Of a DNA stretch of 26,480 nucleotides, positions 2,235-26,025 are shown one piece after another. The translations under genes and the position numbers were made by a program. Origin of the DNA: a virus. Below the pieces are notes generated by a model. That model saw only the letters and a list, made by a program, of their open reading frames with translations, made no database searches and had not been told where the DNA came from. Within the stretch, counting starts at the first letter, position 1. The number at the start of each line of letters is the position of its first letter. The DNA is taken from the IMG/VR virus record IMGVR_UViG_3300022752_000333, positions 1 to 26,480 of that record; one strand, written 5' to 3'.

Positions 2235-3014
2235 CTAAAATCCTAAATTTTTGCGTCTAGCAAAATATAAACTATAGGGTGTTGCTGTTACTGGAAAATT
2301 TGGTATATCAAAAGCAGTTTTATATGGACTTACCAATCTCCAATTTTTACCCCATTTATAGTCTAAATACTCGTGTTCGTTTAAAAATCTAGCAAAATCT
2401 ATTTTTACCTTTAGTTGTGGATCTTGTCTCCAAGTTTGAGAGCCGGTACTAGCATAGTCATAACTACCGCCATGTTTTACTGGTATGTTTAATGATAGTT
2501 TGCGCTTTATAGGATTTAGTGCCAATCTCATTTCATAGTCACAATCTTCACCATAGCCAGGATAAAAATTTTCATCAAATAAGCCGTAGTTTTCAACTAC
2601 CCAATCCCTTATAGCAAAAAGTGACCAGCCACCAGTATTACTACCGCTTGGTCCTTCGTCTCCGTGTACTGTTCCAATATCCGGCTCATTTATAGCTTCC
2701 ACCATTTTAGCCAAATATCCACTAGGAAATTCTATGTCATGGTTTACTATTATCCAATAATTGGCAAACATATAACATTTTATTATTAAATTCCATGCTC
2801 CACTACAGCCTATATTTCTTGGCATATGTGAAACAGTAATTTTTTCAATAAATTTATGCTTCTGTTTGGCTAAATGATCTAGTTTTTGGTTTAATTCTTC
2901 ACGACCGTTATTATTGATAATAACAAATTCTTTTGTTGGATAATCTACACTTTGTATTAGATTATCCAACCATTGAACTCCATTTACTACTGCTGTGCCA
3001 ATTACAGGTATCAT
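2235..3014 (-). CDS. Family 2-like glycosyltransferase
   Basis: A 259-residue GT-A-fold glycosyltransferase, probably cytoplasmic. A nucleotide-binding start is followed by FVIINNN (about 30-36) and NIGCSGAWN (about 67-75). A DxD-like VNHDIEF lies at about 90-96. The acceptor/catalytic block FDENFYPGYGEDCDYEMRL spans about 146-164. These are the usual landmarks of GT2-type enzymes that move a sugar from an NDP-sugar. The gene interrupts the T5-like recombination block, lying between the resolvase and the SbcC-like gene, so it is probably an insertion relative to T5. An AGG ribosome binding site precedes the ATG. Possible targets are virion proteins, modified DNA bases or host surface glycans; the sequence does not say which. 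Confidence 0.8.
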   Translation of the reverse strand: MIPVIGTAVVNGVQWLDNLIQSVDYPTKEFVIINNNGREELNQKLDHLAKQKHKFIEKITVSHMPRNIGCSGAWNLIIKCYMFANYWIIVNHDIEFPSGYLAKMVEAINEPDIGTVHGDEGPSGSNTGGWSLFAIRDWVVENYGLFDENFYPGYGEDCDYEMRLALNPIKRKLSLNIPVKHGGSYDYASTGSQTWRQDPQLKVKIDFARFLNEHEYLDYKWGKNWRLVSPYKTAFDIPNFPVTATPYSLYFARRKNLGF

Positions 3015-21133: not shown

Positions 21134-21202
<69 letters not shown>

Positions 21203-21212
<10 letters not shown>

Positions 21213-21784
21213 CACTTAATCTTTCTTATCCAAATAGTAGCTATTTGTTTTATACCACTAATAACTTGATCACCACTATGTTTAGTTAATTTATTAGTGT
21301 CTTTGTCATAATCATATTCGAAATACAATAGTTTTCCAGCTTTAGGAGCTATTGATTGATTTAAAAGAGGAAAGGTTGTATTTCCTCCACTAAAATTATC
21401 ATTTAAATAAAGTATAGTAGTTATTACTCTATTATTATCTTGCAAATCTTTATCAGAGAAATAATCCCAATGATCTTGATAGAATTGATTAGGTTCATAT
21501 CTAGTTAATTGAACATCTTCGAATCTTGAACTGCTAATATTAAAAAATTCAGAGATTTTTGTATAAATTAATCTTATTTCTATAGGTATAGTAATATTTT
21601 TTAAATTAACAAATACGGTTGAACTAGTTCTAATATCGGTAAAACGTGTAGAACTAGTTTCAGCATTCCAGCCTTTGCTTTTACGCCACTTCCATCTAAA
21701 ATTTACAATATTACTACACTGTTCGGGAGAAATAAAATTATCTATTGTAACTATTAGTGGTTTATTATTAATAATTGATAGCAA
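21203..21784 (-). CDS. Prolyl 4-hydroxylase-like 2-oxoglutarate/Fe(II) dioxygenase
   Basis: A 193-residue double-stranded beta-helix dioxygenase. The lines LTRYEPNQFYQDHWDYF (93-109) and LYLNDNFSGGNTTFPL (125-140) are typical of prolyl 4-hydroxylases. The iron ligands are H105, D107 and H169 (TKHSGDQ), and K179 (GIKQIATIWIR) would bind 2-oxoglutarate. The family hydroxylates prolines in collagen-like and other Pro-rich sequences. Its length is that of the catalytic domain only. The start is TTG with AGGA eight bases upstream; there is no in-frame ATG. The stop TAG lies inside the tRNA gene, made of bases 8-10 of the tRNA. The gene follows the GT17-methyltransferase gene by 10 bp. A collagen-like protein in the same window is an obvious candidate substrate. 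Confidence 0.88.
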
Positions 21785-23301: not shown

Positions 23302-23376
23302 TGGTACTCAATAACAGATTTGAACTGCTGGCCCTCTCGGTGTAAGCGAGACGCTCTACCATTGAGCTACTATCGC
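23302..23376 (-). tRNA. tRNA-Val(UAC) with non-pairing acceptor strands
   Basis: A 75-base tRNA-like sequence. The D stem is GCTC/GAGC, the anticodon stem TCTCG/CGAGA is perfect with loop CTTACAC (anticodon UAC, Val), and the T stem AGCAG/CTGTT has loop TTCAAAT. The CCA end is encoded. The two acceptor strands are GCGATAG and ATTGAGT, of which only two or three positions can pair. Other registers do not help. It sits one base after the CCA of tRNA-Gly, so both come from one transcript. It may be a chimera of two former tRNAs, a decaying gene, or a tRNA that needs editing. Decoding of Val codons is doubtful. Confidence 0.7.
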
Positions 23377-23377
23377 G

Positions 23378-23453
23378 TGGAGCGGAATATGGGTCTCGAA
23401 CCCATGACCTTAACTTTGGCAAAGTTACGCTCTACCAACTGAGCTAATCCCGC
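23378..23453 (-). tRNA. tRNA-Gly(GCC)
   Basis: A complete 76-base cloverleaf. The acceptor is GCGGGAT/ATTCCGC with one G-T pair. The D stem is GCTC/GAGC, the anticodon stem TAACT/AGTTA with loop TTGCCAA (anticodon GCC), and the T stem ATGGG/CCCAT with loop TTCGAGA. The discriminator is U and CCA is encoded. Confidence 0.96.
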
Positions 23454-23554
23454 ACTCGAATTAATTCTACTTTTATAAAATTATGTTTGTCTAAAAACCA
23501 ACGTAAATAATAACGCGGTTTATCTATAAGATTAACATATTCTAGTCGTTCCAC
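23444..23554 (-). CDS. Possible 36-residue protein ending inside tRNA-Gly
   Basis: An open frame starting with GTG inside the last codons of the upstream gene and ending at TAG formed by bases 8-10 of tRNA-Gly. The product reads LEYVNLIDKPRYYLRWFLDK followed by HNFIKVELIRVRD, which looks protein-like (mixed aromatic, basic and aliphatic residues). The ribosome site is weak (GAAG). It fills the otherwise empty 88 bp between the upstream gene and the tRNA. The same stop arrangement is used by the prolyl hydroxylase gene, which raises my trust a little. Confidence 0.35.
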   Translation of the reverse strand: MERLEYVNLIDKPRYYLRWFLDKHNFIKVELIRVRD

Positions 23555-23748
23555 TCGTCATCTTCACTGTCACTATCAGTGCTATCATTAGGATGTGTAC
23601 TAGTAACTACTAGATCAACTCCTGTATGACTATCCAATTCATCAATTAATTCTGCTAATAATTTTAGTAATCTGCTGTGATCGTAATGATCTTCGGCATC
23701 GCAGTTAAAACTAACTTCTAAGTTATGTGTTGTAAGCTGTAAGTGCAT
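23542..23748 (-). CDS. Small acidic protein, unknown
   Basis: A 68-residue protein. It starts MHLQLTTHNLEVSFNCDAED and ends in a very acidic, Ser-rich tail (STDSDSEDDEWND). The frame extends four codons to a TTG, but GGAG lies 7 bp before the ATG at 23748 and supports that start. The leader lies directly downstream of the tmRNA. No family is recognised. Confidence 0.6.
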   Translation of the reverse strand: MHLQLTTHNLEVSFNCDAEDHYDHSRLLKLLAELIDELDSHTGVDLVVTSTHPNDSTDSDSEDDEWND

Positions 23749-23769
23749 AAAATACTCCAAGTTGTTGTA

Positions 23770-24048
23770 GCGGCGGTTGATTGGTTAATAAGGCCAACCG
23801 CCAAAACCCCACTTAGCTTATGCAGCTAAGGCGTAAACTTCATCATTTGCGTTTACTTTAGTTTGCTTGATTTACGGTCATCGCCTACCGAGTTGTCCAC
23901 TTTAGTACTCTTCACCATGTCGAAACCATGACTGGCCCATCAGAAGCACTCTGGGATGCCGTTTTCGCATCTCGCTGGTAATGACCAAGACCTACATCAG
24001 AATGCTTTTGGTGGACCAGGCGGGAATCGAACCCGCGTCCACAATGTT
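23770..24048 (-). ncRNA. ssrA: Circularly permuted tmRNA (two-piece ssrA)
   Basis: Transfer-messenger RNA rescues stalled ribosomes and tags their products for proteolysis. On the minus strand the gene begins with the tRNA-like 3' part: T arm GCGGG/CCCGC with loop TTCGATT (24020-24036), acceptor strand CTGGTCC (24013-24019), A and encoded CCA (24009-24011). After 70 bases comes the 5' part: acceptor strand GGGCCAG (23932-23938), then the D-loop-like TCATGGTTTCGACATGG. The two acceptor strands pair at all seven positions with G3-U70, the alanine identity pair. The tag frame lies at 23818-23850. A hairpin around its stop codon (TTAGCT/AGCTAA) matches helix P5 of tmRNAs. The order acceptor piece first, coding piece second is the permuted form. 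Outer ends are approximate; I could not place helix P2 with certainty. Confidence 0.92.
23818..23850 (-). other. tmRNA tag reading frame (ANDEVYALAA)
   Basis: Eleven codons from the resume codon GCA to TAA encode ANDEVYALAA. This differs at one position from the Escherichia coli tag ANDENYALAA. The ALAA end is the signal read by ClpXP and related proteases. The resume codon is preceded by GTAAAC. The tag is shorter than those of most alphaproteobacteria and resembles beta- and gammaproteobacterial tags. Confidence 0.9.
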
Positions 24049-24068
24049 TTTCCTTCTATATCATACAA

Positions 24069-24506
24069 CTATAAAGTTTGTACTATTTCACGAATACGTT
24101 CTTCTAAAACGCTGATAGCAGTATTATAGTGACCACCATCATGATCCATAGATTTATACTTCTTTTTTAATCTTTCTACTTCACGAGTAAGTATATCAAT
24201 CTTAACGTGATCATCAGGATTTTGTCCACTATAAATACTGTTATGAATTGCTAGATAGCCTGCACACTGTGCTTGTAGATAGCTGCTTTCATCAAATCCA
24301 AAAATTTGATAGAGTACATAGCGATAACTACCTTGCTGCTCAATCTCACCACGATAGATTCTACGACTCACAGCGCAAAAAGCATCAAGTTGCTGCTCTT
24401 TGGTTAGTGAATTCCAGTACTGTTCACTCTTATCTTTAAATTCTTTGATCATTTGATCAAAAACTTCGCTAGTTTTGTCAAGGTTTTCTAGTAGTTCACT
24501 ACTCAT
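24069..24506 (-). CDS. Unknown helical protein upstream of tmRNA
   Basis: A 145-residue, mostly helical, charged protein (SEVFDQMIKEFKDKSEQYWN; AFCAVSRRIYRGEIEQQGSY; a final coiled-coil-like region REVERLKKKYKSMDHDGG). No family is recognised. Start ATG overlaps the previous stop as ATGA, with GGAA upstream, so translation is coupled to the 24503-24724 gene. The stop lies about 20 bp before the tmRNA acceptor piece, and the tmRNA is probably processed from the same transcript. Confidence 0.65.
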   Translation of the reverse strand: MSSELLENLDKTSEVFDQMIKEFKDKSEQYWNSLTKEQQLDAFCAVSRRIYRGEIEQQGSYRYVLYQIFGFDESSYLQAQCAGYLAIHNSIYSGQNPDDHVKIDILTREVERLKKKYKSMDHDGGHYNTAISVLEERIREIVQTL

Positions 24507-25452: not shown

Positions 25453-26007
25453 TTATACCTCTGATTGTCCTGTTATATGCCAATTATCATTAAAAATTAG
25501 TGTTATTGATTCGTAAGGTGACTGTAATACAATTTGATCACTATTGTCTATTTTATCACCATTTTGTGTGATTATATAAATTTTTTTATTTTCCAGTTGT
25601 TTTTGCTGTGCTTTAATAATAATCATTCTACCTTTTTCAGGCTTTAGTGGTAAAATAATATCTATCTTTTTTTCGTTTAAAACTCCTATATAGCAGTCGT
25701 CTGGTTGTACATAGTAAGTATCTTTAACAATTATTGTGTTTAATATACAGGCTTGATTAACGGGTGCAGGTGGTCCTGGTGGACCTGGATCACCTTGAGG
25801 TCCTTGTGCTCCCATAGGGCCTTGTATGCCTTGTGGTCCTGGTGGACCCTGTACGCCTTGTGGCCCTTGTGGACCTGGAGGCCCTTGACCAGTACTAGTA
25901 TTAATAATTAAATCGTTATCACTAATTGATTGTTTAGGCGGTAAACTATACTGAGGCGGTGCTTGAAAAAACCACGGTGGTGGTAAAAAATATTGTGTTT
26001 GATACAT
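25453..26007 (-). CDS. Collagen-like repeat protein, probable fibre or virion decoration
   Basis: A 184-residue protein in three parts. The N-terminus (1-41) is rich in Pro and aromatics ([20 protein letters not shown]). Residues 42-80 form thirteen unbroken Gly-X-Y triplets. Five have Pro in the Y position (four GPP and one GDP); the others include GPQ, GVQ and GIQ. The C-terminal part (81-184) is beta-rich ([47 protein letters not shown]) and resembles trimeric fibre tips. Such proteins form triple helices in phage tail fibres and appendages. I chose the ATG at 26007, which has GGAG upstream, over a TTG four codons earlier. Its neighbour upstream is a Gln-rich, probably structural protein. 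Confidence 0.85.
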
Positions 26008-26025
26008 TATAATCTCCAATAAAGA

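Follow-up and report, generated by a model that had tools for sequence, protein, structure and literature searches.

A complete circularly permuted transfer-messenger RNA (tmRNA) gene was identified on the minus strand, from position 24070 to approximately 23770, of a 26,480-base virus record (IMGVR_UViG_3300022752_000333; the whole stretch is referred to as the window). The locus is a real circularly permuted, two-piece tmRNA gene and its RNA very probably works as a tmRNA, relying on the processing enzymes, the alanyl-tRNA synthetase (AlaRS) and the SmpB protein of the host. The structure of the gene, its conservation, the covariation of its stems and the selection on its tag frame are all observed in the sequences. 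Overall, a probability of about 0.88 is assigned to the reading that the gene encodes a functional phage tmRNA of betaproteobacterial architecture that uses host factors for ribosome rescue.

Structure of the window tmRNA gene

The gene was matched by the merged permuted model RF04321 (139 bits, cut-off 47, E = 1.4e-27) and by the beta_tmRNA model RF01850 (122 bits, cut-off 84, E = 5e-37) using Infernal, and ARAGORN independently called a permuted tmRNA with the tag ANDEVYALAA at 23727-24101. Both programs had been proposed as a check when the gene was first predicted from the window (hereafter the original prediction), and both returned it.

The pieces follow the permuted order: T-arm, 3' acceptor strand, A73 and CCA, then a spacer, then the 5' acceptor strand and the tag frame. 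The acceptor piece (24009-24070) contains the 5' strand of the P2 helix (AGUUGU, 24070-24065), the T-arm (24036-24020), the 3' acceptor strand (CUGGUCC, 24019-24013), A73 (24012) and CCA (24011-24009). The spacer that follows (23939-24008, 70 nucleotides) is presumably excised; it is predicted to be closed by a helix of 10 base pairs (AAGCAUUCUG/CAGAGUGCUU) stacked beside the acceptor stem, ends in the conserved linker UGAU and contains no nested open reading frame (ORF). The coding piece (23770-23938) starts with the 5' acceptor strand (GGGCCAG, 23938-23932), followed by the D-arm analogue GGUUUCGAC and the 3' strand of P2 (ACAACU, 23896-23891), which pairs with AGUUGU to form an outer helix that is supported in relatives. 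The short tag frame (23818-23850; GCA AAT GAT GAA GTT TAC GCC TTA GCT GCA TAA) encodes ANDEVYALAA, ending in a protease signal directly before the stop codon, and a 3' hairpin (GGCGGUUG/CAACCGCC, 23802-23772) is predicted near the 3' end of the piece, which is approximate; for the mRNA-like domain, the consensus models used leave out pseudoknots. The two acceptor halves form seven out of seven pairs across the spacer, and the alanine identity pair is present as G3 (23936) opposite U70 (24015). The separated pieces, the 70-base gap and the seven acceptor pairs including G3-U70 are thus all present as originally described. The predicted extent of 23770-24048 fell short upstream, where the P2 strand at 24070-24065 had been missed.

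Conservation in T5-like relatives and other phages

The window was placed among the T5-like phages because its ORFs match PHROG profiles of a D5-like regulator, a two-part NAD ligase, SbcC/D-like proteins, a DNA polymerase, a primase and a DnaB-like helicase, and because its polymerase is 48% identical to those of Vibrio and Enterobacter phages with genomes of approximately 110-130 kb. This placement rests on the replication module, the virion genes lying outside the 26-kb fragment. A total of 80 related IMG/VR loci were fetched with the window polymerase and 50 of these records were searched with RF04321. The tmRNA scored over the cut-off in 14 records and under it in one (L096), which reaches 72 bits once its long spacer is allowed. 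Of the 15 records with at least 14 kb of sequence on the upstream side of the polymerase, 14 carry the tmRNA. A ribosome-rescue RNA of phage origin is thus a nearly constant feature of this clade of T5-like phages, in which trans-translation therefore seems to be a regular function of the phage rather than a curiosity.

The stems of the RNA covary and the tag is under selection. Two-sided changes that keep the pairing were found at 16 out of 37 consensus pairs in an alignment of 14 T5-like sequences, including pairs of the acceptor, P2 and T stems. The 12 distinct 33-nucleotide tag frames differ 101, 109 and 359 times at the first, second and third codon positions, respectively, and share fixed residues at the start (A-N-D) and at the end (L-A-A). 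Based on this third-position excess and the fixed residues, the tag is very probably translated. No smpB gene was found in the 50 T5-like records, although control genomes gave the expected matches, and host SmpB would therefore be needed.

Two pattern scans of viral contigs were pooled with the T5-like set and with named phages, resulting in at least 156 complete copies of the permuted gene, at least 127 of them distinct (contig counts are lower bounds). Among the 127 distinct copies listed, the acceptor stem pairs at seven out of seven positions in 126, compared with 40 on average and never more than 54 after the 3' strands were re-dealt, and the G3-U70 pair is present in all 127. Matches to RF04321 among named phages include the Stenotrophomonas phages Marzo and Bhz51, in which the tmRNA is annotated, Synechococcus phage BUCT-ZZ01 and Xanthomonas phage X1, as well as two phages without tmRNA annotation, Pseudomonas phage UF_RH6 (L383, 1209-1508) and Alcaligenes phage vB_Af_QDWS595 (L384, 1173-1426). 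Since Stenotrophomonas and Pseudomonas can be cultured and their phages share this architecture, the question of function can be tested now. Four of the copies encode CCU (L092) or CCG (L134, L172, and L178) in place of the terminal CCA, which would therefore need repair by a host enzyme.

The case for a phage-specific lineage is built on the pattern GUUGUAUGA, which the phage copies carry in the P2 helix. The pattern has at least 120 matches in viral contigs and none in 84,980 bacterial and archaeal genomes, the latter in a scan without positive control. A second scan of bacterial genomes with the tmRNA pattern returned nothing and so pointed to no donor or host. A scan of viral contigs with the Rfam-like bacterial P2 motif was also empty, and the zero counts in bacteria are therefore suggestive only.

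In T5-like records the tmRNA is usually preceded by tRNA-Thr and followed by tRNA-Gly, tRNA-Val or tRNA-Met. The window contains tRNA-Gly(GCC) as the downstream neighbor (23378-23453), tRNA-Val(TAC) (23302-23378) and a tRNA with a CAT anticodon that was called as tRNA-Met (21134-21212), all on the minus strand. Together with the PHROG matches and the polymerase similarity, these tRNAs bear out the original description of a T5-like replication and tRNA region. Two ORFs on the minus strand border the tmRNA: an upstream ORF of 145 amino acids (24069-24506) whose stop codon (24071-24069) extends into the start of the P2 strand, and a small downstream ORF of 68 amino acids (23542-23748) that follows a GGAG-like Shine-Dalgarno sequence just past the 3' end of the tmRNA. 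No riboswitch family and no plasmid matched the window, and a blastn search for a close named isolate gave no more than partial matches, which were to phages of Stenotrophomonas, Synechococcus and Xanthomonas. Elsewhere, the window encodes a probable tail-fibre protein with collagen-like GPPGPQG repeats (25453-26019), a glycosyltransferase-like protein (2235-3014) and a 2-oxoglutarate-Fe(II) (2OG-Fe(II)) oxygenase (21203-21784).

Protein genes in the spacers of related tmRNAs

Among the phage copies listed, the spacer from the CCA to the 5' acceptor strand ranges from 28 to 577 nucleotides. It usually opens with a helix arm directly after the CCA and closes with the linker UGAU (84 out of 107) or UAAU (12 out of 107). 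In 20 of 107 spacers, a set not selected for this feature, an ATG located 7-16 nucleotides after the CCA opens a frame that spans the spacer (4.3 expected from shuffling, maximum 12 in 200 shuffles), and such a frame is found in 16 out of 22 spacers of at least 115 nucleotides within the same set. Most of the frames start behind an AAGG-like Shine-Dalgarno sequence inside the 5' helix arm. Many end at the UGA of the linker that precedes the RNase P site. Others continue into the tmRNA, and processing would then remove their stop codon. A further scan aimed at a CCA followed by a Shine-Dalgarno sequence, and thus selected for that sequence and a nearby ATG and not for frame length, added 28 loci, with 18 of the 28 frames stopping at the linker. 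The ORF-bearing tmRNA genes that were tested still score over the Rfam cut-off.

The nested frames encode proteins of several kinds. The spacer of L096 encodes an HNH endonuclease (PHROG E = 8e-28) whose frame ends inside the acceptor strand, where GGGGUAG supplies the UAG stop codon. The Shine-Dalgarno-aimed scan revealed a second, HNH-like endonuclease (L348), a protein whose Tpt1/KptA-like match is weak (L331) and several short hydrophobic peptides of 22-24 amino acids. A protein of 122 amino acids (L208 and L129; also L252-L264) occurs in full length at least 13 times in viral contigs, with end fragments in two further cases, and all 15 listed copies are located at the same place beside the tmRNA halves. 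The ratio of non-synonymous to synonymous substitution rates (dN/dS) is mostly 0.1-0.3 among nine distinct copies. Its predicted structure (predicted local distance difference test, pLDDT, 87) resembles GNAT acetyltransferases (Foldseek E approximately 2e-3, template modeling (TM) score <0.55) and no GNAT model was matched in Pfam; the protein may thus be GNAT-like, a suggestion to which only the predicted fold points. A relative of this protein was observed outside any tmRNA as a domain of a large phage protein (L265, 3001-3351), where it is flanked by GVAEG motifs. Spacers of 82-89 nucleotides encode hydrophobic, probably membrane-spanning peptides of 22-24 amino acids that end at the linker stop (L279, L306, L316, L323, L292, L335, L359, L364, and L377). 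Further spacer genes were found in L121, L146, L152, L304/L345, L116/L193, L130, L091 and other loci, and the comparison of L116 with L193 revealed 15 synonymous changes and one non-synonymous change in 25 codons.

Several loci differ in the type of their tRNA-like parts. The T-arm, spacer and D-arm are of different type (alpha-like or beta-like) in L085 versus L095 and in L088 versus L090 and L093, while the flanking P2 and tag are nearly identical. In L253 and L260, nearly identical genes of the 122-amino acid protein are located between T- and D-arms that are alpha-like in L253 and not in L260. These sequences look as if the tRNA-like cassette had been exchanged by recombination. L129 and L262 carry one mismatched acceptor pair, which resembles what a recombination scar would leave.

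The presence of protein genes in permuted tmRNA spacers is well supported, and a protein gene in the gap between the two tmRNA pieces appears to be new: no mention was found in the literature searched, which is not the whole literature. On balance, we favor the view that the phage permuted tmRNAs are largely a lineage that circulates among phages and uses the excised spacer as a gene slot, with tmRNA maturation and expression of the nested protein competing. In this arrangement, the 5' arm of the spacer helix would hold the Shine-Dalgarno sequence, and the 3' arm with the four-nucleotide linker would hold the last codons and the UGA or UAA stop. Nested endonucleases could help to spread the cassette between alpha- and beta-like tmRNAs. 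If confirmed, the spacer genes would give circular permutation a use, as a compact site that places a structural RNA and a protein on one transcript; such a use was not found in the literature searched.

Proposed function, alternative explanations and known systems

The proposed function starts from a single precursor that is probably co-transcribed with the neighboring tRNAs and in which the acceptor strands would pair across the short spacer hairpin. Excision of this spacer by RNase P and 3'-processing enzymes of the host would yield an acceptor piece with CCA at its 3' end and a coding piece with GGGCCAG at its 5' end. Host AlaRS would charge the acceptor piece via G3-U70, host SmpB and EF-Tu would deliver the charged tmRNA to stalled ribosomes and the ANDEVYALAA tag would mark the product of the stalled ribosome for host proteases. 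Where mRNA turnover is heavy, as in a lytic T5-like infection, this may keep ribosomes and amino acids available for phage synthesis. Rescue after host mRNA decay and redirected proteolysis, the two roles put forward in the original prediction, are plausible. Several points weigh against this reading. All statements on function, from transcription, processing and charging to the use of host SmpB and the benefit to the phage, are inferred, and the fit of the tmRNA to host SmpB and AlaRS is presumed. Promoter and terminator patterns near the tmRNA are no more common than in shuffled sequences, and none is convincing. Many of the records, including the 26-kb window contig, are fragments.

Three alternative explanations were considered. 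As a tmRNA-like decoy, the RNA might bind SmpB, EF-Tu or stalled ribosomes of the host and thereby block host trans-translation, and the tag-less tmRNA of mycobacteriophage DS6A is reported to be inhibitory (cited in PMC11915505). A pure decoy needs no tag, whereas the tag frame of the phage genes is intact and under purifying selection (more than threefold third-position excess) and the alanine identity pair is invariant, which makes a decoy unlikely. Slightly less likely still is a host gene that was captured passively, for example when excision from an ssrA integration site was imprecise, and that serves the phage little. Integration at tmRNA genes is common, and a similar origin has been proposed for the tmRNA of phage Melnitz (PMC9004378). 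Passive capture is at odds with a gene that is nearly universal in the T5-like clade where the region is covered (14 out of 15 records) and that shows covariation and tag selection over a long divergence. T5-like phages are classically virulent, and no integrase was found among the ORFs scanned in the window fragment. A chance match or a miscalled tRNA or hairpin is excluded by Infernal scores far over the cut-offs (E values of 1e-27 to 5e-37) together with the ARAGORN call; bacterial contamination was rejected based on the phage replication genes throughout the contig, itself a virus record, leaving either explanation with a negligible probability. The reading as a functional tmRNA that uses host factors thus remains strongly preferred.

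Phage permuted tmRNAs are real, widespread in aquatic phages and already known in kind. A two-piece tmRNA was described in 2022 in the OM43 phage Melnitz, together with the finding that 53 out of 133 unique phage tmRNAs, mostly from aquatic phages, are two-piece (PMC9004378); a separate study lists 79 unique bacteriophage tmRNAs (PMC11915505). The window tmRNA therefore joins a known kind, and the original list of carriers (alphaproteobacteria, some cyanobacteria, and some betaproteobacteria) was incomplete in omitting phages. The window gene shares with Melnitz and the other aquatic phages a phage-borne, circularly permuted gene with a complete tag frame. In the myophage Melnitz, the tmRNA is of alphaproteobacterial type and stands under a glutamine riboswitch (PMC9004378), whereas the window gene belongs to a T5-like phage, has beta-type architecture and is located beside tRNAs, with no riboswitch family matched. 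The piece order, acceptor domain and P2 are shared with the betaproteobacterial two-piece tmRNA (RF01850; merged in RF04321), as are the CAACUCGG.AGGCGA hairpin region, the UAAA-resume region and the GGGGUU...CCUUAUUAACCAA 3' domain. The P2 sequence differs, phage copies reading GUUGUAUGA and the bacterial consensus GUUGUauuCC. The tmRNAs of the Stenotrophomonas Menderavirus phages (Marzo and Bhz51), UF_RH6 and QDWS595 are likewise permuted and beta-like, carry the UGAU linker before GGG and score over the RF04321 cut-off, but belong to unrelated phage types and encode other tags (VAANDDSYTVRIAA, ANDTSFDVRLAA, and ANDNVYAAAA). Finally, intron-bearing tmRNA genes with homing endonuclease genes (PMC11915505) share with the phage relatives a protein gene, sometimes an endonuclease gene, nested in the tmRNA gene; in the phage relatives there is no intron, and the nested gene occupies the spacer that is excised from a permuted gene.
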